In this document: positions 6,399 through 53,781 of the stretch, piece after piece | Numbering within the stretch: position 1 is the stretch's first letter | How the letters are laid out: every line of letters starts with the position of its first letter | Source: Cryptosporangium minutisporangium | GTDB lineage: Bacteria; Actinomycetota; Actinomycetes; Mycobacteriales; Cryptosporangiaceae | NCBI RefSeq assembly: GCF_039536245.1 | Contig: NZ_BAAAYN010000044.1 | Location: forward strand, 196,230 to 260,229 | Reading direction: 5' to 3' | Length of the DNA: 64,000 bases | Position numbers and translations under genes: made by a program | Notes under the pieces: model-generated | Databases searched by the model: none | Seen by the model: only the letters and a program-made list of their open reading frames with translations | Told to the model about the DNA's origin: nothing

Positions 6399-7469
6399 AT
6401 GCGACTTCTCGTACTCGGTGGAACGAAGCTTCTCGGGAGTGCGGTGGTACGTGCTGCCCTGGATGCCGGCTGGCACGTCACGACGCTGACCCGAGGTCTC
6501 CACGGTGCGCCGCCGCCGGGTGTCGACGCCCGGACCGGTGACCGGACGACACCCGCCGGGTTGGCCGCGCTCGGCGACGACGAGTGGGACGTCTGCATCG
6601 ACACGTCGGGGTACGTGCCGCGGGACGTCCGGCTGAGTGCGCGGACGCTCGCCGGCCGGGTCGGACGCTACGTGTTCGTCTCGACCGTCAACGTGTACCC
6701 GGACTGGCCGGAGCGGCCGGTGACCAGCTCCTCCCCGGTCAGCGACTGCCCGCCCGACGCTGGACCGGACGACGGTGACTACGGGTACCTGAAGTCCGGA
6801 TGCGAACGGGCGGTGCTCGAGTCGTTTCCGGACGCCACGACGATCAACCGCGCGGGGCTGATCTTCGGTCCGCGGGACAACATCGCCCGGGTGTCGTGGT
6901 GGGTCCAACGGGTGGCGGCCGGCGGCGAGGTGCTGGCACCGGGGCGTCCGGACCAACCGCTGGCGCTGATCGACGCGCGGGACATGGCGGAGTGGATGCT
7001 GGGCGCGCCGCCCGGTGCGTTCGTCGTCAACTCGGCCGCGGGTACCCAGACGTTCGGGTCCCTGCTCGCCACCGCGCGGGACGTCACCGGGTCGGACGCG
7101 CGCTTCACCTGGGCGGACGACCAGGTGCTGCTGGACGCGTCGGTGGAGCCGTGGACCGAGCTGCCGCTCTGGCTGCCTGAGTCGATGTCCGGGCACGCGT
7201 GGGATCTGGACGTGTCCGGCGCGTACGCAACCGGTCTGCGCATCCGCCCGCTGGCTGAGTCGATGTCCGGGCACGCGTGGGATCTGGACGTGTCCGGCGC
7301 GTACGCAACCGGTCTGCGCATCCGCCCGCTGGCTGAGTCGCTGGCCGACGTCTGGGAGTGGGTGCGGGAGCACGGGCTGCCCTCGCCCGAGGACGCCGAG
7401 CGCCCCACCGAGCTGGAGAAGCGGATGTCCCGCGAGCGCGAGCAGAAGATCCTCACGGGCCTCGCCTAG
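6399..7469 (+). CDS. NAD-dependent epimerase/reductase with an internal 26-residue duplication
   Basis: Atypical extended SDR of 356 aa. The N-terminal Rossmann motif reads LVLGGTKLLG, and residues around NRAGLIFGPRDNI match NAD(P)-dependent epimerase/dehydratase proteins related to isoflavone reductase-like and RNA-binding CSP41-like SDRs. The substrate is unknown. The gene carries an exact in-frame tandem duplication of 78 bp (7178-7341), so a 26-residue block beginning SMSGHAWDLD occurs twice in a row near the C-terminus. The single-copy protein would be about 330 aa, the usual size. Ends 9 bp before pyrE starts. Confidence 0.85.
   Translation: MRLLVLGGTKLLGSAVVRAALDAGWHVTTLTRGLHGAPPPGVDARTGDRTTPAGLAALGDDEWDVCIDTSGYVPRDVRLSARTLAGRVGRYVFVSTVNVYPDWPERPVTSSSPVSDCPPDAGPDDGDYGYLKSGCERAVLESFPDATTINRAGLIFGPRDNIARVSWWVQRVAAGGEVLAPGRPDQPLALIDARDMAEWMLGAPPGAFVVNSAAGTQTFGSLLATARDVTGSDARFTWADDQVLLDASVEPWTELPLWLPESMSGHAWDLDVSGAYATGLRIRPLAESMSGHAWDLDVSGAYATGLRIRPLAESLADVWEWVREHGLPSPEDAERPTELEKRMSREREQKILTGLA
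7178..7341 (+). repeat. 78-bp perfect tandem duplication inside the epimerase gene
   Basis: Two back-to-back copies (7179-7256 and 7257-7334) plus 7 bases of a third, with no mismatch between copies. Being a multiple of three, it keeps the frame. The complete identity indicates a very recent slippage or unequal-crossover event. Confidence 0.95.
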
Positions 7470-8113: not shown

Positions 8114-9934
8114 TCAGCTCGGCTGCGGCGCCTGGCTGCGGACGTCGTTGAGCGACTTGTGCATCTCGTCCTTGTACTTGTCCGGCGACTGGAACCAGAC
8201 GCCGACCTGGTAGGTCAGGGTGCCGCCCGGCTTGTCGGCGAAGAAGTGGCTGAAGTCGACTGCGTAGAACCCGTCGTCGTTCTTCGGGATCTCGACGTAC
8301 GTGGTCGTGGCGTCGGACTTCTTGAGGTTGGGCTCTTCCTCGTCGTCGAACCAGGCCTCGTTCATCGTCTGCTGCTCGGTCGCCGTGCAGCCGGTCGGGC
8401 AGCGCCGCAGCATGATGTTGAAACGCTGCTGGTGACTGGTGCCCTCGGTCTTGACGCAGCCCCACGCGTTGGCGTCCGGGAGCTCGTCGATGGAGCCGCG
8501 CAGGCAGCTCCAGCCCTCCGGCAGACGGAACGCGAACGGCCAGCCGGTCAGGTCGAGCAGCTGGGTCTTGTCCTCGCTCCCCCAGGTCGGACCGATGACG
8601 GTGACGGGCTCGGCGTCCTCGCGGATCGTCGGCGTCGTGCTCGGGAGCGGCGACCGGGACGGCGTCGGACTCGGGCCAGCGGTCTCGGCCGGCAGTGGGC
8701 TGGCCGACGGCTTCGGCTTGGCGACCGGCTGCTTCGCCTTGTCGTCGTCGCCGCTGTTGATGAACACCACCGCGAAACCTACGGCGACGATCACCAGGGC
8801 GGTCACCGCGGCGATCAGCCCGATCAGCATGCCGGCACTACGTCGGTTGGGGTCGTCCGAGGGCGGCGGGGCTGCGTAGGGCGAAGCGACGCCGTTCGGG
8901 TCGTGCGGGACGGCGGGGTCGCCGTAGGCCGGTGCGCCCTGGTCCGGGTAGCCGCCGCCCTGGGCGGGATAACCGCCACCTTGGTCGGGATAGCCGCCGC
9001 CCTGGTCGGGATAGCCGCCGCCCTGGTCGGGGCTGACGTAGCCGCCCGCAGCGAACGAGGCCGGAGGCCCGGAGTGCGGTGGTGCGGACTGGGGCGGTGC
9101 CGACTGGGGGTCCGGCTGGCCGATCGGTGACGAGAACGGGTCGCTCGCCGGCGGCCCGGACTGGGGCGGCCCCGCCTGCGGTGCTCCGAACTGCGGGGGT
9201 CCGGACTGCGGCGGTCCGTACTGCGGTGGCCCGGACTGGGGCGGAGCGAACGGGGATGGGGTCTGCGGTGGCCCCGATTGGGGAACTCCGGACTGGGGCG
9301 CCGCGGAGACGGGTGCGGAGTACGGCGTCGAGGAGACCGGCGGGGAGTACTGCTCGGCTGCGGGCGGCCCGGCCTGGGTCGGCATCTGCGGCTGGCCGGG
9401 ATAGGGCTGCCCGGGACCCGGCGGCTGGCCGGGGTACGAGGGTTGGCCGGGGTACGAGGGCTGGCCGGGGTAGGACGCCTGCGGCTGCCCGTACGGCTGC
9501 TGGCCCGGGTACTGTCCGGGCGCTGCCCACTGCGGATTCGGCGCGCCCGGCGCCATACCGGCCAGCGCGGCGCCGACCAGCGCGGTGGGGTCGGTGCCCG
9601 GCGGCAGCGCCTGCGGAATCACGTTCAGGATGCGCTCGACGCCACGTCGTCCGGGCTCGTACCGACTGGCCACCCAGGGCCGCTGCCCCTGCAGGTCGCC
9701 GGCGTGCGCGGCGACGAACTGCGGATTGGTCGGGTCGACCGATGCGCGGTCGCGATTGACCAGGTCGGCGAATGCGTTCCGCCACGCCGGGTCGGCGCCG
9801 GCCTCCTGGGTGAGCGCGACCATCACGACCGGGCGTCCGCCCTGGTCGACACCGCTGAACAAGTCGGCCACCGCTGCGTGGTGCACCAGCCGGACCTGGG
9901 TGAACGCGCCTAACTCGTCGCCGGGTTGGGTCAT
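8114..9934 (-). CDS. Membrane protein with kinase-N-lobe-like head, Pro/Gln-rich linker and exported 4-Cys domain
   Basis: 606 aa. Residues 1 to ~110 (from LGAFTQVRLVHH to RPWVASRYEPGRRGVERIL) align by eye with the N-lobe of bacterial Ser/Thr kinases, but the glycine loop and catalytic Lys are absent. A long disordered linker follows, rich in Pro, Gly, Gln and Ser, with repeats such as GGYPDQ and PPQSG. One membrane span sits at about 367-393. The C-terminal ~210 residues, predicted extracytoplasmic, carry the signature WPFAF.+.P.GW.C and four cysteines (about 477, 492, 512, 516). The neighbouring 10122-12683 gene is a paralogue with the same architecture. ATG at 9934 is preferred over an upstream in-frame start because the conserved head begins there. 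Function unknown. Confidence 0.82.
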   Translation of the reverse strand: MTQPGDELGAFTQVRLVHHAAVADLFSGVDQGGRPVVMVALTQEAGADPAWRNAFADLVNRDRASVDPTNPQFVAAHAGDLQGQRPWVASRYEPGRRGVERILNVIPQALPPGTDPTALVGAALAGMAPGAPNPQWAAPGQYPGQQPYGQPQASYPGQPSYPGQPSYPGQPPGPGQPYPGQPQMPTQAGPPAAEQYSPPVSSTPYSAPVSAAPQSGVPQSGPPQTPSPFAPPQSGPPQYGPPQSGPPQFGAPQAGPPQSGPPASDPFSSPIGQPDPQSAPPQSAPPHSGPPASFAAGGYVSPDQGGGYPDQGGGYPDQGGGYPAQGGGYPDQGAPAYGDPAVPHDPNGVASPYAAPPPSDDPNRRSAGMLIGLIAAVTALVIVAVGFAVVFINSGDDDKAKQPVAKPKPSASPLPAETAGPSPTPSRSPLPSTTPTIREDAEPVTVIGPTWGSEDKTQLLDLTGWPFAFRLPEGWSCLRGSIDELPDANAWGCVKTEGTSHQQRFNIMLRRCPTGCTATEQQTMNEAWFDDEEEPNLKKSDATTTYVEIPKNDDGFYAVDFSHFFADKPGGTLTYQVGVWFQSPDKYKDEMHKSLNDVRSQAPQPS

Positions 9935-10121
9935 CGGGGTTCTCGCTCCACTCGCTTCCATGCGTGACCCGGCACCGGACCGGCCCCGTTGGCCCAGTGA
10001 TGTTACGGCCCTGAGTGACAGGTCAGCCCGGCCGAGGCTACACGGCCCGGTCACCCCGGGAGGCAGTTGCGCCTCCGTCCGCGGCCCGGTAACAACCCGG
10101 AAATCACGAACCAGGGAAACG

Positions 10122-12683
10122 TTAAGGCGTCTGGGTCCGGATGTCGTTGGTGACCTTCTGAAGCTCGGCCTGTTCGGAGGGCGGGCTCGTGCCGACGACG
10201 ACGACCTGCCAGCGCAGTGGTTCGCCGCGCCCGTCGCCGAAGAAGTGACTCATGACCAGCCGGTACTCGTTGTACTTGGCATCGGCCGACTCGTGGTAGC
10301 TCGTCGTCGCGTCGCCCCTGGTGAGGGGACCGGGCACGTCGTTGGTCAGTAGGGTCTGCTCCGCGCCGTCGCACGGCGCGTCGCACTCGCGGACACCGAT
10401 CTCCACGAGGGTTCCCGCGCGGCCAGGCGGGCGGCACACGGCGCCGTCGCTGTTCTTCCCGTCGACGACCTGCGCTCCGTCGCACATCCAGCCGACCGGG
10501 ACGCGGAACGCGAACGGCCATCCCGCACGCTGTTCGGTGCGCGTCTGCTCGCCGGAGGCGAATACCGCGCCGACGACCACGACCTGCAGCTCCTGCTTGA
10601 GCTCCGGAAGATTGCCCGCGCGCTGTTGGGCGTTACGGCTAGGGGCCGACGCGACGGACTCGGAGGCTGCCGGAGTGGAGGACGACGGAGCCTCGTCGTC
10701 GTTACCGCCGGACACCGCGAAGATCGTCACCAGCCCGCAGACTGCGAGAACGACCACGGTGAGGACGGCGACCAACGCCAGGACCGCCGTCCGTGCGCCG
10801 TTCCGCCGAGGTGGCTGGGGCTGGGGCTGCGGTTGGGGCGGCAGCTGCGGCCGTGGGAACGAACCGGTGTTGCTCGCGATCGGTCCGCCGGGGCCCGGCC
10901 CGCCCCGGCCGCCAGGCGCACCGGGTCCGCCCTGGCCACCCGGTCCGGTCGGGCCACCCGGTCCGGTCGGGCCACCCGGTCCGGTCGGGCCACCCGGTCC
11001 GGTCGGGCCACCCGGTCCGGTCGGGCCACCCGGTCCGGTCGGGCCACCCGGTCCGGTCGGGCCACCCGGTCCGGTCGGGCCACCCGGTCCGGTCGGGCCA
11101 CCCGGTCCGGTCGGGCCACCCGGTCCGGTCGGGCCACCCGGTCCGGTCGGGCCACCCGGTCCGGTCGGGCCACCCGGTCCGGTCGGGCCACCCGGTCCGG
11201 TCGGGCCACCCGGTCCGGTCGGGCCACCCGGTCCGGTCGGGCCACCCGGTCCGGTCGGGCCACCCGGTCCGGTCGGGCCACCCGGTCCGGTCGGGCCACC
11301 CGGTCCGGTCGGGCCACCCGGTCCGGTCGGGCCACCCGGTCCGGTCGGGCCACCCGGTCCGGTCGGGCCACCCGGTCCGGTCGGGCCACCCGGTCCGGTC
11401 GGGCCACCCGGTCCGGTCGGGCCACCCGGTCCGGTCGGGCCACCTGGTCCGGTCGGGCCACCCGGTCCGGTCGGGGCACCTGCGGCCGGGCCCGGCGAGC
11501 GCTGTGCCGTCGGCGGGCCCGGGTGGGGGATGGGCACTGTCGGGTTGTGAGCCCCGGGAGGGAGCGGGCCGTGTTTCGGTGCGCCCTCGGCACGCACCGC
11601 GGCGTCGCCCGCTCGGCCGGCCGGTGTGCCGGCGTGCACGGGGGAGCCAGGCTGCGGAACCGGCGAGCCGGCCGCACCGTCGGGTCCGGCCGGCGCGGAG
11701 GGTGCGGTTGCGGGGGAGGCTGCTGCGGGTGGCGCGGACGCCGCCGCCGGTGACCCGGTGGGCTCGACGGCGGGGATCGGCTCGGTCACCTGGGACCCGC
11801 TGGTCGGTGCGGCTGCGTCACCGGTCGCGGTGGGGGCGTTCGGTCCGGACGTCCCAGCGGGTTGCCCAGTCGGTATCGGCGCTGTCGGCTGGCCGGAGTC
11901 GGCGATCGGGGCGCCGGGCGAACTCATCGGCGCTTGCGGGGCCGGTTGTCCGGACGCGGGCTGCCCCGAGGCGGGCTGCCCCGAGGCGGGCTGCCCCGAG
12001 GCGGGCTGGGCCGAGGCGGGCTGGGCCGACGTCGGCTGGGGCGGCGTCGGCTGGGGCGGCGCGGAGGGCTGGCCGGCCGCGGCCGGTGACTGCGGCTGCT
12101 GCCCGGAGAACGCCCCCTGCTGCTGGGGAGCCGCCTGCGGCGCGGGCCGGGGGGCCGGTGGCTGCGGACCTGGCTGGTTCGGGTGCGGCGCCATGGGCTG
12201 CGGCCCGGCCTGCCCCGCTTGGCCGACACCGGGCTGGCCGACGCCCGGCTGCGGTGAACCAGGGTGGGGTGAACCAGGGTGCGGTGAACCAGGGTGCGGC
12301 GAGCCCGGCTGCGGCGGACGGGGAGCGTGGAGCAGCGCGCTCGGGTCGGTGCCCTCGGGTACCGCGCCGGGCAGGGCCGTCAGGATCCGCTCGGCACCAC
12401 GTCGACCTGGCACGATGCGGCTGGCCGCCCAGGGACGGCGTCCGTATAAATCGCTGACGTGCACCGGGACGTCGAGAGGGCCGAGCGTCGTGGCGTCCTT
12501 CGCCACCGCATCGGTGAACTCGGCCGACCAGTTCGGGTCGCGCCCGGCCTGCTCGGTGAGCGCGATCAGCACGACCGGACGCCGTCCGTTGCGCTCGAAG
12601 CCGGTGAACAGCTCCACGGTCGGCGTGTGGTGGATCAGACGCAGACCGGTGAACGGGCCGAGATCGCTCGCCGACGTCGTCAT
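10122..12683 (-). CDS. Paralogue with collagen-like (GPTGPG)n linker, one membrane span and 4-Cys exported domain
   Basis: 853 aa, same layout as the downstream gene at 8114-9934. Kinase-N-lobe-like head at residues 1-110 ([12 protein letters not shown] to [19 protein letters not shown]) without catalytic residues; Pro/Gln/His-rich linker with HPGSP and PASGQ repeats; about 30 copies of a Gly-Pro-Thr-Gly-Pro-Gly unit (about residues 402-581); basic RRNGAR before a single span (about 627-652); exported domain with [13 protein letters not shown] and cysteines near 733, 749, 765 and 769. The basic residues before the span predict an inside N-terminus, so the collagen-like tract would be cytoplasmic. 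GGAGAAGG precedes the ATG at 12683. The two paralogues are 187 bp apart and probably arose by tandem duplication. Function unknown. Confidence 0.82.
10941..11480 (-). repeat. 18-bp collagen-coding minisatellite, about 30 copies
   Basis: Thirty consecutive 18-bp units, in plus-strand form CGGTCCGGTCGGGCCACC, almost all identical; single-base variants occur near position 11445 and in the last unit. Each unit codes for two Gly-X-Y triplets on the minus strand. All reading frames stay open through the array, which explains apparent long ORFs on the plus strand. Near-identity at the DNA level suggests copy number varies between strains. Confidence 0.97.
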
Positions 12684-12837: not shown

Positions 12838-13575
12838 TCAGAACTTCGGCGGCGTACCGGACCCGAGCGGCGCCTCGTCGGCGGCCGCCTCGGGCTCGTT
12901 CTTCTTGTGCCGACGACTGCGGATCCACTCGATCAGGACCGGCAGGATCGAGAGGAAGATGATGAACGCGATGCCGGGCACGAGGTACTTGTCGATCGGG
13001 AAGTTCTCGTCCACGACGTCGCCGAGGAAGTACCCGAGCAGCACGATTCCGTCGACCCAGAGGATCGCGCCGACCACGTTCCACAGGAAGAACTGCCTGG
13101 TGGGCATGCCGAGCATTCCGGCGACCGGGTTGAGGAACGTCCGCACGATCGGAATGAACCGAGCGAACACGACGGCCTTGGCCGGACCGAACTTCACGAA
13201 AGCCTGCTCGGCCTTCTCCACGTAGATGCCCTTGAACAGCCGCGAGTTGGGCCGGTCGAACAGTCGCCTGCCGTACTTGGCGCCGAGGAAGTGCCCGAAT
13301 TGGGCCCCGGCGATCGCGCAGATGGGACCGCCGATCAGCATGCCCGGGAGGCTCAGCGACGCGCCGACGATCGTCGCGCCGGTCGCCGACGTCGCGATCC
13401 CGGCGAGGAAGAGCAGCGAGTCGCCAGGCAGGAAGAAGCCCAGCAGCAGGCCGGTCTCGGCGAAGAGGATCGCCCAGATGCCGAACAGGCCGAAGGTCGT
13501 GACCAGATACTTCGGATCGATCGGGTTCGCGGCGAGCAGCTCGTTGGCGGCGTGGACGGTCTCGGATACCTGCAC
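12838..13575 (-). CDS. dedA: DedA family membrane protein
   Basis: 245-aa polytopic inner-membrane protein of the DedA/VTT (SNARE-associated) superfamily; known members are implicated in proton-motive-force maintenance and flipping of polyprenyl-phosphate or phosphatidyl lipids. Signature segments: an acidic residue and glycine run in [21 protein letters not shown], then [13 protein letters not shown], and the hallmark [21 protein letters not shown]. The C-terminal tail is charged. The start is a GTG. A DedA gene also lies next to fba in mycobacteria, and fba is 3.9 kb away here. Divergent from the flavoenzyme at 13692. Confidence 0.9.
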
Positions 13576-20443: not shown

Positions 20444-23050
20444 TCAGAGGCCCTCGGCGATCGCCGCCGCGATGCGGAGCCACGCGTTGCGGGTACGGGA
20501 CGAGAGATCGCCGTAACGGATCGGCTCGCCCGAGTCGAGCAGCCGCTCGTACGGCGCCAGCAGCACCGCCCGGGTCCGCGCCGCGAAGTGCCGCTGGATC
20601 GCCGGGAGGTCGACGTCCTTCCGGCTGGCCGGCATCGCGACCACGGTGACCGCCCGGCGCACGAGTTCGTGCCGCCCGGTCTGGTCGAGGTGGTCGAGCA
20701 TCCGCGCGGCGGTCTCCGCGGAGTCGCCACGCGCAGACATCGTCACGACCAGCTGGTCGGTGGCGTCGATCGCGGCTTGCCAGTTCTCCGCCCGGACGTT
20801 GTTGCCGGTGTCGACGACGATCAGCTTGTAGAACCGGCTGACGACCTCGCGGATGTTGACGAACGCCTGCGCGGTGAGCATCTCACCGGCGGTCGCCGAC
20901 TCGTCCGACGCCAGGACGTCGAACATCGCCTCGCCCTGGGACCGGACGAACGGTGTCAGGTCGCCGACCTTGCCCCCGCTGCTCTGGAAACTGGGGAGTG
21001 CGCGCAGCACGTCGCGGACGGTGTGCACGTGGTAGTCCTGCTGGGAGCGCATGCCCAGCGTGCCCTGGGTCTCGTTGTTGTCCCAGGCCAGCACGTATCC
21101 GCCGCGGTTCTGGCCGAACGTCATCGCGGTCATCAGCACGGCGACCGTCTTGCCGGCGCCGCCCTTCGGGTTCACCACGGTCACCTGGCGCAGCCCGCCG
21201 AAGTTCCGCCGGACCTTCCCCACCGCGTCGCGGTACTCGATCTCCCGCTTGGAGAGCTGCGGGCTCACGGTGCCGAACGTGACCCGCCGGATCAGCGCCG
21301 GCACGCCCATCGTCGGCTCCGGCGGTCGCGGGCGGTGTGCCCGCCGAGCGGCGAACTCCTCCGCGGTCGGCGGTACCGCCGGCTGGTCGAAACTCTGCGG
21401 CGTCGGACCGGTCCGCCACTCCGGCTGCGGCCGTGGGTGCTGTTCCCGTGCCTGCTGCGGACGCTCGGCAGCAGCGTCCGGCGCGGGCCGGTAGGAGTAG
21501 TGATCCGCGGGCCGATGCAGGTCGTGCGGGGCCGGCGGCGGTACCTGCGGCTGGGCTTCGGAGTGCGGTGGTGCGGCTGCCTGCGGTGGTGCTGGGTACT
21601 GGCCTTGGGCGAGCGGATCTGCGGCGGGCGGAGCGGACCACTCCTGGCTCGGCGGCGACTGATGCCCCGCCTCCGTGGACTCCGTCGGCCAGTGTGGCGC
21701 GGTCAGCGGATCGGGGTCGGCCGGCTGTCCGGACACGGGGTGCTCGAACACCGGCTGCCCAGAAATCGGCTGCCCTGAGATCGGCTGCCCTGAGATCGGC
21801 TGCCCGTAGTCCGGCTGCCCGGAAGTCGGCTGCCCGTACACGGGCTGGCCGGATGTGGGCTGGCCGGACGTGGGCTGGCCGGATGTGGGCTGGCCGGACG
21901 TCGGGTGGGCGGCCTGCGGCTCCCCTGACGTCGGTGCACCGGAAACGTGTGCGCCCGACACCGGGTTCGGCGCCGCGTACCCCTGCTCACCGGCTGGCTG
22001 CGCGGGCCACTGCGTCTGGTTCGGATCCGGCTGCGGCCACTGCTGGGCCGGCCACTGCTGAGCGGGCTGCTCCGGCCCCTGCTGGGCCGGGTGGGCCGGC
22101 GGCGGCTGGGCCGGCCACTGCTCCGACGGCTGCTGAGCCGGCCACTGCTGCTCCGACGGCTGCTGAGCCGGCCACTGCTGCTCCTGCGCCGGCCACTGCT
22201 GCCCCGCGGCCGGTGGCGGCCACTGGTTCTCCTGCCCCGGCCACTGCGTCTGTGCCGGCCACTGCTGCTGCGCGGGCCACTGGTTCTCCTGGCCCGGCCA
22301 CTGCTGCTGGGCCGGATCCTGCTGCGGCCACTGTTGCTGCGCGGGCCACTGCTGTTCGGGCGCCGGCCACGCAGCCTGCTGCGGCCACTGCGCGGGCTGC
22401 TGCGCCGGCCACTGATCCGGCTGCTGATTCGGCTGCTGACCCGGAGGCTGTTGGGCGGGCCACTGCTCCGGTTGCTCGCCGGGCCACTGCTGCGGTTGCT
22501 CGGTCGGCTCGGCCTGGCCGGGCCAGCCCTGCGCCGACGGTGGCTGCCACTCCTCGCTCGGAGCCACCCCGGGCACGGTCTGCGCGTACGGACCGGGATG
22601 CGGGGGCGGCGTCGACTGAGGGCTGCCCGGAGTCGGCCAGTGCGGCATCGCCGGCTGTTCCGACGGCGACGGCGGGGCCGACGTGGTGGCGTCCGGACCC
22701 GGCTGCGCGGGCACGTCGGGCGTGTCGGAGAGCCGGACCACCCCGTTGCTGGCGGTGGTGCTGTCTACCCACCCCGAACCGCTCTGCAAATGCTCGGCCT
22801 TGGGCGTGCCGTTGGGTGGCGTCTCCGAGCCGTCCGTAGACGGCCACCCGATCGCAGACGGCTCGCCGGGCAAGTCGGCGTGCGCATCGGAGTCAGGACG
22901 GCCATTGGCCTCACCGTTGCTCTGGCCGGTGCCTTGCACGGGATTGGAACCCCCCAACGTTGTGGCCGGAGCATTGCAGAGTCTGGACCCGGTGTGGAGT
23001 GAGGATCGTCCAGCCAGCCCGTGCGCAGGAGGCTGAACCACCCTCAGCAT
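20444..23050 (-). CDS. MinD/ParA-like ATPase with a giant Gln/Trp/Pro-rich N-terminal region
   Basis: 868 aa from the ATG at 23050; a GTG at 22939 (831 aa) is an alternative with a G-rich tract upstream. Residues ~60-600 are low complexity, with dozens of QWPAQ/QQWP units and a run of SGQP(T/I/V) units. The last ~270 residues are a P-loop ATPase: deviant Walker A NPKGGAGKT (about 626-634), LAWDNNETQGTLG, Walker B-like LIVVDTGNN, and a TMSARGDSAETA switch region. This plan recalls EspI of the mycobacterial ESX-1 locus and other MinD-like proteins with disordered N-termini, but no ESX genes are nearby. It presumably binds ATP and dimerises; cargo unknown. It is followed upstream by the DAGK-like gene at 48 bp, so the two may share a transcript. 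Confidence 0.85.
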   Translation of the reverse strand: MLRVVQPPAHGLAGRSSLHTGSRLCNAPATTLGGSNPVQGTGQSNGEANGRPDSDAHADLPGEPSAIGWPSTDGSETPPNGTPKAEHLQSGSGWVDSTTASNGVVRLSDTPDVPAQPGPDATTSAPPSPSEQPAMPHWPTPGSPQSTPPPHPGPYAQTVPGVAPSEEWQPPSAQGWPGQAEPTEQPQQWPGEQPEQWPAQQPPGQQPNQQPDQWPAQQPAQWPQQAAWPAPEQQWPAQQQWPQQDPAQQQWPGQENQWPAQQQWPAQTQWPGQENQWPPPAAGQQWPAQEQQWPAQQPSEQQWPAQQPSEQWPAQPPPAHPAQQGPEQPAQQWPAQQWPQPDPNQTQWPAQPAGEQGYAAPNPVSGAHVSGAPTSGEPQAAHPTSGQPTSGQPTSGQPTSGQPVYGQPTSGQPDYGQPISGQPISGQPISGQPVFEHPVSGQPADPDPLTAPHWPTESTEAGHQSPPSQEWSAPPAADPLAQGQYPAPPQAAAPPHSEAQPQVPPPAPHDLHRPADHYSYRPAPDAAAERPQQAREQHPRPQPEWRTGPTPQSFDQPAVPPTAEEFAARRAHRPRPPEPTMGVPALIRRVTFGTVSPQLSKREIEYRDAVGKVRRNFGGLRQVTVVNPKGGAGKTVAVLMTAMTFGQNRGGYVLAWDNNETQGTLGMRSQQDYHVHTVRDVLRALPSFQSSGGKVGDLTPFVRSQGEAMFDVLASDESATAGEMLTAQAFVNIREVVSRFYKLIVVDTGNNVRAENWQAAIDATDQLVVTMSARGDSAETAARMLDHLDQTGRHELVRRAVTVVAMPASRKDVDLPAIQRHFAARTRAVLLAPYERLLDSGEPIRYGDLSSRTRNAWLRIAAAIAEGL

Positions 23051-40487: not shown

Positions 40488-40830
40488 GGATCCTCCCCGC
40501 AGAGCACTCTGGTGGCATCCCTGCCACCAATTAGACCGAACCATGCCACGGTCGAGGAATGAGGGGAACAGCCGCTAACCGGTGTTCCCGAAGTGGGAAT
40601 CCCGCGCGTTCGGGAATTGCGGGGGCAGTGTGGAGGCTGATCGGCGCTACGGAGGAACGGATTATCGTCCGAACGGACGATCACCCTGGTCACGGTATTG
40701 GCGCTTCCGTCGTCTCTATTAAATGAACCTAGTAAAAGCGTGAAGACGGCGCAGTTGGTTTGGTGTCGCATCGGAACCCACCTAACGTACCGAATGCAAG
40801 TGGGGATGCAGTCATGGGGTGGGGGAGCCG
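40488..40830. other. Intergenic region with two inverted repeats
   Basis: 343 bp between the divergent MpaB-like and kinase genes, with visibly lower GC near 40700-40790 and no supported gene. It contains TTCCC-GAAGT-GGGAA at about 40586-40600 and the more notable palindrome at 40664-40681. TTGGCG (40698-40703) with TAAATG (40720-40725) is a weak promoter candidate for the kinase. Confidence 0.4.
40664..40681. promoter_or_regulatory. Candidate operator palindrome
   Basis: ATCGTCCG - AA - CGGACGAT: perfect 8-bp arms around a 2-bp centre, upstream of both divergent genes and 17 bp before the possible -35 of the kinase gene. The dimension is right for a dimeric HTH repressor; the regulator is unknown. 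Confidence 0.5.
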
Positions 40831-44094: not shown

Positions 44095-45546
44095 CTACCT
44101 ACCGCCGGCGCGTAGTACTTCTAGGAAGGTGCGGATGAACACCTTCACGTCGAGCCAGAGGGACCAGTTCTCGATGTAGTAGTTGTCGAACCGCGCACGG
44201 TCGGAGATCGGCGTGTCCCCGCGCAGGCCACTGACCTGAGCCAGGCCGGTGAGCCCGGCAGGCACCCGGTGCCGGTACGCGTACTGGCGGTGCTCCGCGG
44301 AGAACCGCTCGACGAAGTACGGGCGCTCCGGCCGCGGTCCGACGATCGTCATGTCACCGCGCAGGATGTTCCAGAGCTGTGGCAACTCGTCCATCGACGT
44401 CCGGCGCAGGACCCGGCCGACGGGGCCGACCCGGCTGTCCTCCGCGATCGACCAGTTGGTGGCGGACTCCGCCTCGTTGCGCGGCCGCATCGAGCGGAAC
44501 TTGTACAGGACGAACGGCCGCCCGTCGCGCCCGACCCGCTGCTGCTCGAACAGCACGCCCGGACCGCCCTCCAGCCGCACCGCCACCGCGATCAGGGCCA
44601 GCAGCGGGCTGAGCAGGACCAGCCCGACCGCCGCGACGATGAGGTCGACCGCCCGCTTCATCAGCCACATCGGGCCGTTCAGCCGGGGCTGCCGGATGCG
44701 CATGATCGGGATCGCGCCGATGTGGTCGGGCAGTCCGGTCTGGGTGTGGAACTCGCGCATCCGCGGCACGACCAGCAGGTCGCAGCGGGAGGCACGGGGG
44801 CGGCGCACCAGTTCGACCAGGCGCGCGTCGTCCGAGGTGTCGGCGACCAGCAGGACGTCGGCTCCGGTCACGCGGATGACGTTCTCGATCTCGTCCAGAC
44901 CGCCGCGCCACGGCACGTCGATGCCCTCGGCCGGCCCGGCGTCGCTGACGTGGGCGGCGACCCGGAGCCCGTACTGCGGGTAGCGCCGGAGGAGGTCGGT
45001 GAGCTCCATCGCGGCTTCCCCGGACCCGACCAGGACGGTGCCGTGCGCGACCAGTCGGGCGCGGCGTCCGTACAAAATGATCTGTCCGGTGAGGAACCGC
45101 CCGACGATGACGAGCGCCATCGCCGCCGCGGCGGCACGCAGGAAGTTGCCGAGGATGACGGTGTCCTCGTGCCGGATCGAGGTGATCACGGCGACCACCG
45201 CAGCGGCGGTGAGCAGCCGTCCCAGCAGCAGCGGTAATTCGTCGAGGATGCTCAGGTGGAGTCGCGCGCGGTAGCGGCCGCCGGTGGCGAAGAGCGCAAC
45301 GGTCAGCAGGGCCATCGAGAGGACGGCCTTGAGGTTGCCCAGCGTCCAGATGGCCGGGATCGACAGCATGACCAGGTCGACCGGGAGGACGATGTAGTAC
45401 GCCTTCATGTGCGGCACCCACTTGCGCAGGCGTCGCTTGATGAACCCGTCGCGCGGCGCCGCTGGCGCCGCCGGTTCGGTCAGTGGCTGTGTCGTAAGGG
45501 GATCGACATCGACCACCGGGTGTTCACCAGTTATCTGCGACACCAT
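44095..45546 (-). CDS. Polyprenyl glycosylphosphotransferase (initiating EPS transferase)
   Basis: 483-aa polytopic enzyme that transfers a sugar-1-phosphate from a nucleotide sugar to undecaprenyl phosphate, starting repeat-unit assembly at the membrane. N-terminal four- or five-span region (about 45-130), a Rossmann-like CoA-binding segment (FHTQTGLP neighbourhood), and the C-terminal bacterial sugar transferase domain: KRAVDLIVAAVGLVLLSPLL, GPGVLFEQQRVGRDGRPFVLYKFRSM and a final GLTGLAQVSG...WSLWLDVKVFIRT. ATG at 45546 chosen for AGGGGTGGG just upstream. First gene of the polysaccharide locus; a leader hairpin and repeats lie upstream. Confidence 0.93.
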   Translation of the reverse strand: MVSQITGEHPVVDVDPLTTQPLTEPAAPAAPRDGFIKRRLRKWVPHMKAYYIVLPVDLVMLSIPAIWTLGNLKAVLSMALLTVALFATGGRYRARLHLSILDELPLLLGRLLTAAAVVAVITSIRHEDTVILGNFLRAAAAAMALVIVGRFLTGQIILYGRRARLVAHGTVLVGSGEAAMELTDLLRRYPQYGLRVAAHVSDAGPAEGIDVPWRGGLDEIENVIRVTGADVLLVADTSDDARLVELVRRPRASRCDLLVVPRMREFHTQTGLPDHIGAIPIMRIRQPRLNGPMWLMKRAVDLIVAAVGLVLLSPLLALIAVAVRLEGGPGVLFEQQRVGRDGRPFVLYKFRSMRPRNEAESATNWSIAEDSRVGPVGRVLRRTSMDELPQLWNILRGDMTIVGPRPERPYFVERFSAEHRQYAYRHRVPAGLTGLAQVSGLRGDTPISDRARFDNYYIENWSLWLDVKVFIRTFLEVLRAGGR

Positions 45547-45990
45547 TCCCACCCCTGAGAAACGGGCTTCGAGGCCCGTGGTCGGTTGACGGCAGTTGGG
45601 TTGTCGGATCACGCGTAGCGAGGATGTAATGCCCCGGTCACACAATGACGCGTAATGCTGGCGTCACATCATGATCGCTCCTCCTCGACCTGCTGTCTCC
45701 CCCTGAGAGGGTGACGACCTCGATGTTTAACGAGGGATTAACGGGTTCCGGGTCGTCCGATCGAACTGCTGACCAGGCAATATTCGGGGCTCTGAGGGAA
45801 TCGTCGGCTATCCGACTCGCCCTTTGGCTGAAAGGTTGATAACGACCGGACGGCTGGCGGGTGGAGCACTCCGGGCGGTTGATCTTGAGCCTCGGAATGT
45901 GACAGGACATCGCTGTCGTTGTGGACCATTACTGGGCTGCCCGACTTGCCGTATAAATCCCGTTGCGAGCTGGGATACCCTGGTCGTTCG
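45547..45990. promoter_or_regulatory. EPS-locus upstream region (444 bp)
   Basis: No gene. Contains, just before the transferase ribosome-binding site, a perfect hairpin ACGGGC-TTCGAG-GCCCGT (45562-45579), and two TTAACG direct repeats 11 bp apart (45727-45732, 45738-45743), one helical turn. A candidate regulatory region for the transferase gene; no canonical promoter was assigned. Confidence 0.5.
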
Positions 45991-47235
45991 TCACTTGGCC
46001 AGTGCGCTGCGGAAGCCCGCGACCGCGCGTTCGGCGGCGCTCTCCCAGGACAATTCCTTCTTCATGAAGCGGTAGCCGGCGATGCCCATGCGTTCGGCGT
46101 CGGCTGGGGAAGAAAGCAGCGCCAGCAGGGCCTCCGCGAATCCGTCGGGTGTCGGCTGGGCAAGCAATCCGGTCTCGCCCGCCAAGACGACGTCACGCAT
46201 GGATCCGACGTCCGTCGCGACGACGGGTCGAGCGAACGTATATGCCATGTGCACCACGCCGCTGATATTGACGATTTCATAGGGAAGGGCGACGACCCGG
46301 GCTCCGGCGAACAGACCAGGCACATCTTCCATCGCGACATACCCCGGCTTCAATTGGACGCCCGGGATCTCGGCGGCTTGCTTGGTCACCGCGTCCAGAT
46401 CGAGGTCCGCCATCACCGGACCCGCCACCACGAGCTCCGCGGTCGGCATCTCCGCACGGACCTTCGCGAAGGCGCTGAGCAGCATGGGGATGTTCTTGTA
46501 CCGCGTCCAGGTCCCGAAGAAGACCACCCGCGGCGGAGTCGTGCTCGCGCCGGGCGTCTGGGCGGCGGCGGGCGCGAAAGTGGAGTACTCGCCGTGGCCG
46601 ATCACGGCGGTGCGCTGCACCTCGGGGTAGGCCTTGACCAGGTCGTCCCGCGGTCCGGGGCCGAGCGTCAGCACGAGGTCGAACGCCCGGTAGGCCGCCC
46701 GCAGCGCCCGCATCGTCACCGGGTCGGACTTCTCGACCGAGTCGTGGTCGCCGCTGACGTCGTACGGCGTCGGGTTGTGCGCGACCTCGGCGATGACCGT
46801 GCCCGGCCGCCGCTTCTTCGCGAGACGCACCGCGAAGTAGCTGTCCAGCGCGAACCGCATCTCGCCCAGTTGGACGACGTCCGGGCGGGTGCTGCGGACG
46901 TGCCGCACGAGCTTCGTCCAGGAGTACGTCAGCCGCGCGGCGCGCCAGACCCGGCGAACCTTCCGGAACCAGTTGGCCTCGCCGGTGTCGGCGCCGGGAT
47001 GCCAGGTGGGGAAGAACGATCGGACGGTGAAGCCGGGGACGTTGGTGGACAGCTCCGGCTCCGGGCCGGTCAGCAGCGTCACCTGGTGACCGAGCGAGGC
47101 GAGCGCCTCGCCCAGCATGAAGTTGAACTGGAACATCCCTCCGCTGGGGAGGAACTCCACGAGGACGATGGTCAGCGGGGTCTGATCCGCGGACGTCTCA
47201 TTCGACGTCTCGCCGACGGTGTTGCTCGCGGTCAC
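45991..47235 (-). CDS. GT4 family glycosyltransferase
   Basis: 414-aa GT-B retaining glycosyltransferase. N-terminal FLPSGGMFQFNFMLGEAL, C-terminal nucleotide-sugar lobe with VFFGTWTRYKNIPMLLSAF, ALPYEIVNISGVVHMAYTFARPVVATDVGSM and ETGLLAQP. The donor sugar cannot be told. Starts with a GTG that overlaps the stop of the preceding Wzz-like gene by 4 bp, last gene of a chain of overlapping genes. Confidence 0.9.
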   Translation of the reverse strand: MTASNTVGETSNETSADQTPLTIVLVEFLPSGGMFQFNFMLGEALASLGHQVTLLTGPEPELSTNVPGFTVRSFFPTWHPGADTGEANWFRKVRRVWRAARLTYSWTKLVRHVRSTRPDVVQLGEMRFALDSYFAVRLAKKRRPGTVIAEVAHNPTPYDVSGDHDSVEKSDPVTMRALRAAYRAFDLVLTLGPGPRDDLVKAYPEVQRTAVIGHGEYSTFAPAAAQTPGASTTPPRVVFFGTWTRYKNIPMLLSAFAKVRAEMPTAELVVAGPVMADLDLDAVTKQAAEIPGVQLKPGYVAMEDVPGLFAGARVVALPYEIVNISGVVHMAYTFARPVVATDVGSMRDVVLAGETGLLAQPTPDGFAEALLALLSSPADAERMGIAGYRFMKKELSWESAAERAVAGFRSALAK

Positions 47236-48062
47236 GAAAAGAGAACCCGTTCGTCGGCCGAGTTGGACTCGGTGGTGGACGGTGTCGGATCCGTCTTCGT
47301 CGACGGTGTCTCGGTCTTCTTCTCACCCTTGCCCGCCCACTCGGACGTGCCGGTGAAGCCGTTGGGTGTCTCGGCGGTGGCGTCGGCGGCGGCCGGAGCT
47401 GCCGCCGCCGCGGGGGCCGCCGTCGGGGTGGCCGAGGACGCGGCCGAGAACGGCGGACGCCGGACCGGTCGGCGTGCTCGGCGCCGGGACTGCAGCACCT
47501 GGTAGGCCGCCTGCTGTACGGCGAGCGCGACCGCCAGCGCAGCGATCACCGTGCCGCCGAGGACGATCCACGGCGCGGTACCCGCCGAGTACGCGGTGCC
47601 GGCCGCCGGTCGCACCTGCGTCGCGGTGTAAGGCTTGATCATCGACTGCAGGTAGGTGGCGCTCAGCGCCGCGGTGCGGTCGGCGACCTGCTCGGCGATG
47701 CCGGCGGTGCTCGCCTCCGCCTCGATCAGCAGCACCGACGTGGACGGCACCACGGTCACGGTCACGGTGGTGTCGGCGGCCTCGGCGGTGGAGAGGCCCA
47801 GCGCCTTCTCGGCCTCGGTCTCGAAGCGCCCGCTCTGGGCGACCTCCGCCATCGTGGCGACCACCTGGCCCCGACTGAGTGTCTCCAGGAAGCTCGCCTG
47901 TTCCTGGGCGTCCAGAGTGCTCGCCGGCAGCACGATCAGCGAGGTCTCCGCCTTGTAGCGGCCCTGCTGAGTCAGCGCGAACACCGCGCCGGCGGCCAAC
48001 ACGAGTAACGCCGCGACCACAGCGATCTGCAGGCTGCGCCGCAACGGCTGGAAATCACTCAC
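47232..48062 (-). CDS. Wzz/CpsC-like chain-length determinant protein
   Basis: 276 aa; two membrane spans (about 13-30 and 165-185) enclosing a periplasmic-type loop with an YKAETSLIVLPAS segment, the classic Wzz plan, followed by a disordered Ala/Pro/Thr-rich cytoplasmic tail. There is no Walker motif, so no bacterial tyrosine-kinase domain is attached. GTG at 48062 overlaps the upstream glycosyltransferase gene by 8 bp (coupled); ATG/other in-frame starts up to 48104 exist. Confidence 0.82.
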   Translation of the reverse strand: MSDFQPLRRSLQIAVVAALLVLAAGAVFALTQQGRYKAETSLIVLPASTLDAQEQASFLETLSRGQVVATMAEVAQSGRFETEAEKALGLSTAEAADTTVTVTVVPSTSVLLIEAEASTAGIAEQVADRTAALSATYLQSMIKPYTATQVRPAAGTAYSAGTAPWIVLGGTVIAALAVALAVQQAAYQVLQSRRRARRPVRRPPFSAASSATPTAAPAAAAAPAAADATAETPNGFTGTSEWAGKGEKKTETPSTKTDPTPSTTESNSADERVLFS

Positions 48063-49236
48063 TGGACGGTCCCATCTTTGGTGCTCGGCTGCGTCCTGCG
48101 GCATCGCGCCTCGGGCGCGGCGACCTGACCAGCACCGATCGGTAGGCGGCCGCGAGGCGGGCGCTCAGTATCGGCAGGTCGTGCCGCTCCTCGGCGCGTT
48201 TCCGTGCTGCTGCTCCGATCGTCTGGCGCCGTGTTTTCGACGCAAGTACGTCCGCTAGCGCTTCGGTCAGGGCCGGTACGTCGCCGGGCTCGACCACCCG
48301 ACCCTCGACACCGTCCCGGATCATCGTCGGTACTGCTCCGATCGCGGTGGCCACGACCGGCAGACCGCTGGCCATCGCTTCCAGGATGGCCATCGGTTGG
48401 CCCTCAAGATAGGACGGAAGGACAAACACGTCGGCGTCCCGCAAGCGCACCCGGACCTGTTCGCCGTACTCCGGCCCGACGGCGGCGTCCGCCAGCCCGG
48501 CGGACTCGAGTGCGCCCATCACCCGGGCGTACTCCTCGTCCGGGGTGGGGCCCTGGCCGCCGATGATCACCAGGTTGAACCGCACGCCTCGCGTCCGGAG
48601 GTCGGCGCAGGCCGCGGCGAGTTCCGGTACGCCCTTGCGGGCGCAGACGACGCCGACGAACAGCACGGTGGGGACGTCGGCGTCGAGGCGCGCGAGTTCG
48701 AAACTCCCCACGTCCACCGCGTTGTCGACGGTCTCAACCGGCGTCTTCGGCAGGATCTCGGAGAACGTGCTGGTACCGGCGTCGGAAACCGTGAGCACCA
48801 GCGCGCTGACCCCGACCGCACGGAGGATCCGCCGGTCCCGGGCGCTGTAGTCGGCGACCTCGGGTCGTCCGGCGTTGCCGGTGGCCGAGTGGACGTGGGC
48901 GACGACGCCCCGGGTGCCTGCCCGCGCGGCCAGGCAGAGCGCCGCCGCCCGGATCGTCGGCAGCCCCGGGTCGGCGACCAGCTGGACGTGCACGACGTCG
49001 GCGCGCCGGGCGGCTTCGAACGTCTTCCACGCGTCGCTCAGCGCGTGGGTGATGTTGGAGAAGACCAACTTGCCGCCCTGGCGGGTGGCGGTGCGGGCGG
49101 TGTTGAGCAGCTCGACGTCGAACTCGGCGGCCAGGCGCGGATCGGCGGTGATCGTCTCGGCGAACGTGGCGATGCCACCGCGCATCGGTGCCGCCTCGGC
49201 GACCACCACCACGCGTGGGCGGGCAGGAACAGTCAC
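48055..49236 (-). CDS. GT4 family glycosyltransferase
   Basis: 393-aa GT-B transferase. N-terminal MRGGIATFAETI; C-terminal FVGVVCARKGVPELAAACADL, FNLVIIGGQGPTPDEE and PSYLEGQPMAILEAMASGLPVVAT, the E-x7-E signature of family 4 (EGQPMAILE). GTG start overlaps the stop of the next upstream glycosyltransferase gene by 4 bp. Part of a coupled four-gene chain. Confidence 0.9.
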   Translation of the reverse strand: MTVPARPRVVVVAEAAPMRGGIATFAETITADPRLAAEFDVELLNTARTATRQGGKLVFSNITHALSDAWKTFEAARRADVVHVQLVADPGLPTIRAAALCLAARAGTRGVVAHVHSATGNAGRPEVADYSARDRRILRAVGVSALVLTVSDAGTSTFSEILPKTPVETVDNAVDVGSFELARLDADVPTVLFVGVVCARKGVPELAAACADLRTRGVRFNLVIIGGQGPTPDEEYARVMGALESAGLADAAVGPEYGEQVRVRLRDADVFVLPSYLEGQPMAILEAMASGLPVVATAIGAVPTMIRDGVEGRVVEPGDVPALTEALADVLASKTRRQTIGAAARKRAEERHDLPILSARLAAAYRSVLVRSPRPRRDAAGRSRAPKMGPSSE

Positions 49237-50381
49237 GCGGCCGTCCCCACCGGCCGGCCCGCCGCGGCCTCCTCGTACAGGCCGCGCAGCTGCCGCGCCC
49301 AGTTCACCGCGTCGAAGTGCTGTTCGACGTGCGAGCGGGCCGTCACTCCCATCGCCGCGCGACGGGACGGATCATCGAGCAGGGAGATCAGCGCGTCGGC
49401 GATCGCGTCGGCGTCGCCGGGCGGGGTAAGCAGGCCGGTGACACCGTCCTCGACGATGTCCGGGATCCCGCCGATCCGGCTCGCGACCACCGGACGAGCG
49501 CACCCGGCCGCCTCGATCAACACCGTCGGCAGGTTCTCGCCGTAGGTGGAGGGCAGCAGGACGACGTCCGAGGCCCGCAGAATCGCGGCCACATCGGACC
49601 GGGCACCGGCGAAGACGACGTCGTCCTGCAGGCCGGCCTCGGTGACCTGGCGGCCCAGGTTCTCGGTCTCGTTACCAGCGCCGACGAGTAGCAGGCGGGC
49701 ATCGGGGCGAGCCGCGCGCACCAGCGGCCAGGCCCGCACGGCGTGCGTGATGCCTTTGAAGTCGCGGTGAGCGGCGAGCACGGTGACGACCGGACGGCCG
49801 GTGAGACCGAACTCGGGCGGCATCAGCGAGGGGCCGGGGGAGAAGTGGGCGAGGTCGACGCCGTTGTGGACGACGACCCAGTTCTTCGGGATCCGACCGG
49901 ACTTGCGGTACTTCTCGGCGAACGACGCCCGGGACGCCTCGGAGACGAAGATCGTGCGGTAGGAGCGGCTGGCCACCTCGACGGCGAGCTTCTCCCGCCA
50001 CGCCGCCCGGCCCGGCAACGGCCGGTGGACGTGGTGGAACGTGCAGAGCGCCTTCCGGCCGGCGAGCTTCGCGGCGGGCACCGCCAGCGTCATCGCCATC
50101 TCCAGATGGGCGTGGACGACGTCGGCGCCGGACTCCTTGATCGCGGCGGCCAGCAGACGCGGGGCGCGGGGATCGAGCGTGCGGCGGATCCCGAGATAAC
50201 GAGGAGTCAGTCCGGACTCGCGCAGCAGCGGTTCGAGTTTCGAGTGCTCGTCCGACGGGGGTAACAGGCTGAGCACGTCCATCTCGAACCCGGCGGTACC
50301 GGCGACCCGGCCGAGTTGCGCGATCAGTGTTTCGGCGCCTCCTAACCGAAACGCGTCAACGAGCGTCAGGACCCGAACCAT
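49233..50381 (-). CDS. GT4 family glycosyltransferase
   Basis: 382-aa GT-B transferase, first gene of the chain. N-terminal LVDAFRLGGAETLIAQLGR (GG loop), VHAHLEMAMTL, VHNGVDLAHFSPGP, LLLVGAGNE and LPSTYGENLPTVLIEAAGCARPVVAS (E-x7-E). ATG at 50381 with GGGTGGGAG upstream. Confidence 0.92.
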   Translation of the reverse strand: MVRVLTLVDAFRLGGAETLIAQLGRVAGTAGFEMDVLSLLPPSDEHSKLEPLLRESGLTPRYLGIRRTLDPRAPRLLAAAIKESGADVVHAHLEMAMTLAVPAAKLAGRKALCTFHHVHRPLPGRAAWREKLAVEVASRSYRTIFVSEASRASFAEKYRKSGRIPKNWVVVHNGVDLAHFSPGPSLMPPEFGLTGRPVVTVLAAHRDFKGITHAVRAWPLVRAARPDARLLLVGAGNETENLGRQVTEAGLQDDVVFAGARSDVAAILRASDVVLLPSTYGENLPTVLIEAAGCARPVVASRIGGIPDIVEDGVTGLLTPPGDADAIADALISLLDDPSRRAAMGVTARSHVEQHFDAVNWARQLRGLYEEAAAGRPVGTAA

Positions 50382-50621
50382 ATAACTCCCACCCGTGGAC
50401 GCCTTAGGCAGTGCGGCCGACATCTGTTCACGTCGACAATGTCTGGTTGCAGAAGATTACGCAGCGTGCCCGTCGACAACGACGGGGCGAATAGATCGGG
50501 GCTGGTTTCGCCGCCCACGTTAGCATGCGCTCGGGTCACGGTTCCGGAGCCGACAGAACGCCCGATGCCCGCCGTTCGGCGGCCCGCGAATGGGACATTC
50601 AACTGCCTGGGGGGAGGAAAC
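50382..50621. promoter_or_regulatory. Divergent intergenic region of the EPS locus
   Basis: 240 bp between the glycosyltransferase chain and the flippase gene; must carry both promoters. No clear hexamers seen; a GC-poor patch is present near 50435-50470. Confidence 0.35.
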
Positions 50622-52163: not shown

Positions 52164-52199
52164 GGTTTGGCGGTCGGCTCGGCGGGCAACGGATGCGGC

Positions 52200-52295
52200 A
52201 TGAGCGCTGCCATGTGGATCGCCATCGCGATTGCCCTGCTCGCCGGACTCATCGGCGTTCCGCTGGCCCTGCGGCGGGGCGAGCGGGAGAAGTAG
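52200..52295 (+). CDS. Small one-span membrane peptide (31 aa)
   Basis: A short ORF, ATG at 52200, TAG at 52293-52295: MSAAMWIAIAIALLAGLIG, then VPLALRRGEREK. One hydrophobic span and a basic tail; 36 bp after the flippase stop and directly before the convergent glycosyltransferase. ATG is preceded by GGCAAC/GGATG only, so initiation is uncertain. Resembles the many small membrane peptides of unknown role. Confidence 0.45.
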   Translation: MSAAMWIAIAIALLAGLIGVPLALRRGEREK

Positions 52296-52304
52296 TCCCA
52301 GGCT

Positions 52305-53573: not shown

Positions 53574-53781
53574 CGGCTCCCCCTCCAACGGCCGGTGGCC
53601 GCCTCGCGGCACATCTAACCGTGTCTCTGGGTTCGGTGCGTTACGTCCCCGAACGGAGGACCTGACGAGCGAGAACCAGCCATCGGATACTGCCGGTAAC
53701 GACACTGGCGTGAAACCCCGCGACTTGAAAGTTTAGGTAGCCTCGCCAGAGTCGTGACCCCCCGCATCGTTCAGGAGCGTC

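Follow-up and report, generated by a model that had tools for sequence, protein, structure and literature searches.

Two tandem membrane proteins of Cryptosporangium minutisporangium with a predicted kinase N-lobe head and an exported four-cysteine domain

What use is the N-lobe of a protein kinase when the rest of the kinase is missing? The question is raised by two adjacent genes, P1 and P2, in a 64,000-nucleotide stretch of the Cryptosporangium minutisporangium genome (contig NZ_BAAAYN010000044.1, positions 196,230 to 260,229; this whole stretch is called the window). In both encoded proteins, a head of ∼113 residues is followed by a long disordered linker rich in Pro, Gly, and Ala, a single membrane span, and a tail of ∼160 residues with four cysteines. 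The head is predicted to fold as a Ser/Thr kinase N-lobe, and the architecture makes it very probable that P1 and P2 are N-lobe-only pseudokinase receptors. The best overall explanation, to which we give about an even chance, is that these single-span, receptor-like proteins use a noncatalytic docking N-lobe to join an envelope sensor to partners.

Layout of the pair and predicted fold of the head

The features of the two proteins, in window coordinates, are listed here.

10122..12683, minus strand: P2, an 853-residue membrane protein with N-lobe head, Pro/Gly-rich linker, one span, and exported four-Cys domain
12345..12683, minus strand: P2 head, residues 1–113, predicted kinase N-lobe without Gly loop, β3 Lys, or αC Glu (AlphaFold2, structure matches, residue columns)
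10938..11459, minus strand: P2 linker repeat, GPTGPG ×29 with Gly at each third residue; a comparable run in 0/3 sister species
10698..10802, minus strand: P2 membrane span, residues 628–662 (hydropathy)
10125..10589, minus strand: P2 exported four-Cys domain, residues 699–853, Cys 734, 750, 767, and 771
8114..9934, minus strand: P1, a 606-residue paralogue of P2, identical in kind of architecture
9590..9934, minus strand: P1 head, residues 1–115, predicted kinase N-lobe lacking catalytic residues (aligned with kinases and with the P2 head)
8744..8845, minus strand: P1 membrane span, residues 364–397 (hydropathy)
8117..8611, minus strand: P1 exported four-Cys domain, residues 442–606, Cys 477, 493, 512, and 516, predicted PsbP/Mog1-type fold (AlphaFold2 and structure searches)

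The original prediction, made from the DNA letters alone, had described two neighboring minus-strand genes with a common head, a low-complexity linker, one span, and a four-Cys domain, and this layout was confirmed. The two heads are 51% identical over 116 columns. The one hydrophobic segment in each protein carries an Arg pair on its N side and acidic residues right after it. The matched Cys spacing, put at about 15–16, 16–20, and 4, is 16/19/4 in P1 and 16/17/4 in P2. The two C-terminal domains, whose failure to align had been named in advance as a reason to give up the prediction, do align, with 32% identity over span plus tail. Because the side-by-side pair is present in 3/3 other genomes of the genus and the four cysteines are invariant in 8/8 P1 and P2 tails of the genus, the architecture does not reflect chance. 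In the DNA of the P2 linker (window 10919–11480), ∼31 near-identical 18-bp units (98% matches) encode the collagen-like GPTGPG run that precedes the span; the run is probably a recent slippage expansion.

The proposal that the head is a Ser/Thr kinase N-lobe was borne out by profile searches, predicted topology, and structure searches. A search of 394 genomes of the class with a head profile built from the window's genus (A3) gave matches at an expectation value (E) ≤ 0.001 in 90 of them, the own genome included. Among the 29 outside loci returned, an open reading frame (ORF) with the kinase HRD motif was present in 24, and an N-lobe and span only in 4 (L024, L025, L026, and L038 are short proteins of this kind with nothing further recognizable); L030 was not resolved by the motif pattern. 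A broader profile made from 18 heads (A8; phylum search, E ≤ 1e-6) matched in 110/396 genomes, with a best match outside the family at E 6e-19, and 25 of the 28 A8 loci read contain an ORF with both HRD and DFG.

AlphaFold2 modeled the P2 head (113 residues, 10 sequences) with a mean predicted local distance difference test score (pLDDT) of 83.3 and a predicted template modeling score (pTM) of 0.77. The predicted order of three strands, a short helix, a long helix, two strands, and a helix corresponds to β1–3, αB, αC, β4–5, and αD of a kinase. In Foldseek, protein kinases made up 50/50 among the matches listed, with 44 matches at E ≤ 0.001. VIA, a second aligner, ranked PknB (1o6y) first (Z 10.5, root-mean-square deviation [rmsd] 3.0, 102 residues aligned, with a range extending into the C-lobe) and the MviN pseudokinase (3uqc) seventh (Z 9.9, rmsd 3.3, 106 aligned). 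An unrelated fold for the head, which would have told against the prediction, was thus not what the structural search returned; the matches are kinases. The models support the assignment of the head as a kinase N-lobe without its C-lobe.

To compare catalytic positions, 10 kinases, 30 heads, and 4 N-lobe-only proteins of another family were aligned. Both the β3 Lys and the αC Glu are present in 10/10 kinases and in none of the 30 heads or the 4 N-lobe-only proteins. The first and last Gly of the glycine loop are kept in 15/30 and 19/30 heads, respectively, and in neither P1 nor P2. No HRD-like motif was found in P1, P2, or any of 28 relatives, and the P1 and P2 heads pass straight into the low-complexity linker with no C-lobe. 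The absence of glycine loop, Lys, and the whole C-lobe, as originally noted, is therefore confirmed for both proteins. With the ATP-binding Lys, the αC Glu, and the C-lobe all missing, P1 and P2 should not be kinases. A kinase fold devoid of catalytic residues is what marks a pseudokinase, and the P1 and P2 heads, as modeled, have this character in an N-lobe only.

Other positions are retained. An Asp after β4 is found in 27/30 heads and 10/10 kinases. Heads and N-lobe-only proteins have G-A/V-E-like residues after the hinge in common, the first position being G in 26/30 heads and 4/4 N-lobe-only proteins and L in 10/10 kinases. These shared residues hint at a single lineage of N-lobe-only proteins, in a region where the alignment is gappy. 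A second family of N-lobe-only membrane proteins, without the four-Cys domain, was also seen (L146, 7763–8485, minus; L147, 8112–8951, plus; L148, 7979–8740, minus). It lies near VWA-type genes in 3/3 cases and MoxR-type ATPase genes in 2/3, by eye, and DUF58 was confirmed in L146. The L146 protein matched the AfsK model at its N-lobe end, with E 7.6e-5 and a score well short of the model's cut-off.

Fold and history of the exported domain

According to the structure searches, the exported domain is not an orphan. The P1 tail was modeled by AlphaFold2 (16 sequences) with pLDDT 93.5 and pTM 0.89. In Foldseek, two matches reached E ≤ 0.001: CyanoP (E 5.7e-4, template modeling [TM] score 0.43) and a photosystem II structure, through its chain P. 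Lower rows included many plant abscisic acid receptors at low probability. With VIA, 3hlz came first (Z 11.5, rmsd 3.7, 129 aligned); PsbP (2xb3) scored Z 11.1 (rmsd 3.5, 133 aligned) and 1eq6 Z 9.4. Further down were the mycobacterial proteins MTC28 (Rv0040c; Z 9.3) and LpqN (Z 8.7). LpqN, MTC28, and PsbP resemble the P1 exported domain in fold but share about 8%–10% sequence identity with it in the structural alignments. In the middling range of the tool were TiME (Z 7.8), the PknH ectodomain (4esq; Z 7.4, rmsd 4.1, 131 aligned), and Apa (Z 7.2). The P1 tail is accordingly modeled as a PsbP/Mog1-type fold.

Sequence families gave less. Among 16 tails searched against Pfam at E ≤ 1, no family of the PsbP/Mog1 fold was matched; P1, P2, and the 16 tails had no PknH_C among their listed matches, and a PF14032 (PknH_C) search of the own genome at E ≤ 0.001 returned no match. 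Homology of the tail to PknH_C was considered and rejected: the fold is similar at a middling score, the sequence is not (hhalign probability 3%, P 0.015).

Across 47 tails, Cys occupies the four aligned columns in 46, 47, 47, and 47 sequences; in L056 the first Cys is one residue off, and its four Cys still match. From the strand positions in the model, Cys1 would pair with Cys2 and Cys3 with Cys4. The headless Dactylosporangium relative (L060) has a lipobox-like N terminus by eye and reads as a lipoprotein, and the tail is placed outside the cell on this basis. For P1 and P2 themselves, the lipoprotein-like relative and the charges flanking the span point to the same sidedness.

A link to type VII secretion would follow if the tail belonged, as a remote relative, to the Rv3446c family (TIGR03931). 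Proteins of that family have a cytoplasmic part, a linker, one span, and a possibly related exported domain. The TIGR03931 model does match the span and tail of P2 (E 1.6e-4) and of the Glycomyces L066 protein (E 8.9e-5), and the profile-profile comparison (P 7e-5, probability 63%) is in register at the VP.GW motif, with P ≥ 0.036 in eight reversed or shuffled controls (four per family). However, the scores of 22.1 (P2) and 22.9 bits (L066) are below half of the curated cut-off of 47.6; P1 reaches only E 0.007 and 16.7 bits, and the relatives L134 and L130 have no match at E ≤ 0.01. Much of the match consists of span and linker, a probability of 63% is not decisive, and the TIGR03931 members above the cut-off (in 6/41 genomes) have a different cytoplasmic part, by eye. 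We regard this explanation as improbable.

The two halves of the proteins give different trees. The eight P1 and P2 heads group together (SH-like approximate likelihood ratio test [SH-aLRT] 87), whereas a joint clade of P1 and P2 tails is rejected in the tree of 47 tails (approximately unbiased [AU] test, p-AU 0.007), a clade that was chosen for the test after the tail tree had been viewed and in a tree with long branches. The P1 tail is 44% identical to the headless L053 and 32% identical to the P2 tail, and is nearer to headless proteins of another family. A recent tandem duplication of the whole gene was rejected on these grounds. Alignments and trees suggest domain exchange or unequal rates in the history of the tails.

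Conservation, relatives, and gene neighborhoods

Relatives of the tail occur in 48/397 genomes and 9/85 genera of the order, the window's genus included; a narrower tail profile matched 3/394 genomes of the class, the own genome among them. The 14 loci from titled genome records belong to Glycomyces (6), Hamadaea (3, two of them metagenome-assembled genomes [MAGs]), Candidatus Stackebrandtia (a MAG), Actinoplanes utahensis, Dactylosporangium fulvum, and two other MAGs. From outside the genus, 39 tail proteins were read, with duplicates L073 and L077 and fragment L080 dropped. The head is present in 28 of the 39, which are not independent, as many come from one genus. In L083 the head is cut by the reading frame, L062 is cut by the contig end, and nine are headless: L053, L074, L075, and L076 with another N terminus, the lipoprotein-like L060, and L057, L058, L063, and L068, which are short or different. 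The repeated co-occurrence of head and tail, which the original prediction had named as support, is thus found in other genera.

The rate of change of the head was compared with that of its neighbors by pairwise nonsynonymous divergence (dN) among four species of the genus; the proportion of synonymous differences (pS) was 0.16–0.47 in all genes compared. For P2, dN was 0.004–0.045 in the head and 0.22–0.40 in the tail, and for P1 0.044–0.082 and 0.056–0.144, respectively. The neighboring orotate-phosphoribosyltransferase (OPRT)-like gene, named by eye, gave 0.016–0.067 and the DedA-like gene 0.023–0.125. In every species pair the P2 head had a lower dN than the OPRT-like gene. Linkers are far less alike, with about 15%–85% identity in most 60-column segments. 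Constraint on the P2 head equals or exceeds that on the enzyme gene, whereas the P2 exported domain evolves rapidly.

These values bear on the possibility that the head is a nonfunctional relic and that the exported domain alone matters. The loss of the catalytic Lys, Glu, and C-lobe and the existence of headless relatives (9/39) fit such a relic, but the P2 head is 95%–99% identical between species against 56%–71% for the tail, and a head is retained in 28/39 relatives read. We consider a functionless head highly improbable. A decaying kinase was ruled out by the dN comparison of the P2 head with its neighbors, and the word remnant in the original prediction does not hold in the sense of decay.

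The surroundings of the genes were studied in regions of 9–17 kb fetched around 14/21 head-bearing loci (one with a cut head) of the searched genomes. Polysaccharide genes lie near 13 of these 14 loci of related genera, 10 by Pfam and 3 more by blast cluster, with none near L141. Their types are glycosyltransferase, O-antigen-ligase- or flippase-like, LCP, sugar-transferase, and acyltransferase. When the loci were scanned by tblastn with each locus's own proteins excluded, such genes were found in 11/14 loci versus 0/20 round-coordinate regions of seven of the same genomes. At locus L143, the ORF and a same-strand glycosyltransferase ORF overlap by a single base, with starts assigned mechanically.

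This neighborhood favors the main rival of a docking receptor, in which the head would be a structural scaffold within a complex for envelope or polysaccharide assembly. Its binding partners would then be assembly proteins instead of kinases, and no signal would pass through it. The glycosyltransferase, flippase- and O-antigen-ligase-like, LCP, and sugar-transferase genes near the 13 loci are what it would expect, and a precedent is EssB, a membrane protein with a pseudokinase-like part and a proposed anchor of a secretion apparatus (PMC3694306, in the portion of the paper available). In the tblastn scan, however, neither the window's genus nor Glycomyces showed polysaccharide neighbors, and the pairing of a nearly invariant P2 head with a fast-changing exported domain is easier to reconcile with a variable ligand than with an unchanging complex. 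A scaffold is a possible explanation, to which we give less weight than to docking.

In the window's genus and in five Glycomyces loci, the neighbor is a DedA-like gene, here the following.

12838..13575, minus strand: DedA-like membrane protein gene upstream of P2, with a 154-bp gap (VTT_dom on the Glycomyces L066 copy, same blast cluster)

Headless tail relatives have surroundings of their own. Those of L131 (7880–8809, plus), L144, and L145 are flanked by genes for a class I tRNA synthetase and an NlpC/P60 protein, and a DivIVA gene is found upstream (Pfam on L131; L144 and L145 by the same blast clusters). Polysaccharide neighbors were found in 0/3 headless loci in the tblastn scan.

Elsewhere in the window, glycosyltransferase-like, chain-length-determinant-like, and O-antigen-ligase-like ORFs were noticed by eye at 44095–55740, about 32 kb from P1 and P2, and this region is likely a polysaccharide-synthesis cluster. 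An 868-residue ORF (20444–23050, minus) begins with a long Pro/Gln/Trp-rich region that contains many tandem repeats, and its C-terminal part, with GGAGKT, is MinD/ParA-like by eye. Its NCBIfam ParA match is weak (E 0.005), Pfam returned no ATPase family for it, and it resembles the EspI type of type VII loci. At 7172–7347, a 78-bp tandem repeat (2.3 copies, 96% matches) repeats 26 residues in frame in an epimerase-like gene, named by eye (6399–7469, plus), and is either an assembly slip or a young duplication.

A docking role for the head and comparison with known systems

In the docking reading, the exported PsbP/Mog1-fold domain, on a short stalk, would bind an envelope ligand or partner, and the cytoplasmic N-lobe would dock through a conserved surface onto a cytoplasmic partner. 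The likeliest partner would be the N-lobe of a true Ser/Thr kinase or the head of the sister protein. By analogy, the simplest use of a lone N-lobe would be a back-to-back dimer of this kind: PknB is capable of back-to-back dimerization (PMC6333020, in the sections available), and MviN has many family-specific constraints in its N-lobe, particularly at the back-to-back interface (PMC12599244, likewise in part). The outcome would be a coupling of surface state to the regulation of envelope or polysaccharide assembly, as the neighborhoods of related genera, and not those of the window's genus, suggest. A docking role of the head is about evenly balanced, and a kinase as its partner is tentative and rather less likely.

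Several observations weigh against this reading. A kinase family in Pfam was matched by 0/18 single heads. Against PDB sequences, the head profile returned only PknE at E 0.15 and one unrelated row, and a single outside kinase N-lobe as query gave no match at E ≤ 1e-10; neither search yielded a residue mapping onto PknB. The Asp after β4 is absent in 4/4 N-lobe-only proteins of the other family, and this conserved residue may be structural in role. For the P1 tail, even the two best Foldseek rows have low TM-scores (0.39 and 0.43). The P1 head is less constrained than the OPRT-like gene and close to its own tail, so the contrast between head and tail belongs to P2 only. No kinase gene was seen beside P1 and P2, the nearest kinase-like ORF noticed in the window starting at 40819 (by eye). 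In the tblastn scan, polysaccharide neighbors were found in 0/11 loci of the window's genus (3), Glycomyces, Stackebrandtia, and two MAGs, and the link may therefore be confined to some branches; the queries of that scan were drawn from the loci scored, most of which belong to one genus. Any signal would also have to cross a disordered linker that is hundreds of residues long.

Parts of the architecture have precedents. PknH has a kinase fold inside the cell, a linker, one span, and an exported domain with disulfides, and it carries a full, active kinase. P1 and P2 share this order of parts and, at the middling score given above, the ectodomain fold, but have no two-lobed kinase, and their tail profile aligns poorly with that of PknH_C. 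TIGR03931 proteins are alike in layout and differ in the cytoplasmic domain, with P1 and P2 below the curated cut-off. The pseudokinase domain of MviN has two lobes. MviN (Rv3910, ActPs3) is likewise a membrane protein of actinobacteria, and its catalytically dead kinase domain recruits a partner and forms a back-to-back dimer; here, however, the protein that carries the domain is essential to the making of peptidoglycan, and FhaA is recruited by way of a phosphorylated tail (PMC12599244, in the text available). EssB/YukC of the Firmicutes type VII secretion system also combine a cytoplasmic pseudokinase-like part, one span, and an exported domain; EssB, however, has both lobes and a helical exported domain (PMC3694306, in part), and the predictions for P1 and P2 agree with neither. 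The available part of a 2025 review describes seven bacterial pseudokinase families (ActPs1–3, GLW, CP1, DYD, and DLHK), with no N-lobe-only family mentioned and the word C-lobe absent from the text of the review (PMC12599244). Membrane pseudokinases (EssB, MviN) and kinases with an ectodomain of comparable fold (PknH, middling score) are thus already known, and an N-lobe-only pseudokinase joined to an ectodomain of this fold was not found in the open-access literature consulted, which was partial in coverage.

A wider proposal, which we hold to be unlikely as it stands, is a "half-kinase" receptor class. Its N-lobe would be cut after the hinge, with a PWVA...GAE[RK]-like end whose G-A-E part is missing in kinases, and would serve as a self-contained allosteric module for docking, carried by single-span proteins whose exported domains can be exchanged. 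N-lobe heterodimers would switch true Ser/Thr kinases on or off, placing sensing and catalysis on separate polypeptides.

In the literature consulted, the bacterial membrane pseudokinases described keep two lobes, MviN among them. So does EssB (PMC3694306, in the portion available), whereas here the N-lobe alone is kept and is repeatedly joined to an exported, sensor-like domain. The P2 N-lobe is under strong selection, yet heads and tails escape Pfam (0/18 heads for a kinase family and 0/16 tails for a family of the PsbP/Mog1 fold). If the head docks on kinases, it would offer a compact case of an N-lobe with an allosteric role of its own, would extend actinobacterial signaling by a set of hidden receptors, and would suggest a function for envelope proteins encoded near polysaccharide genes.

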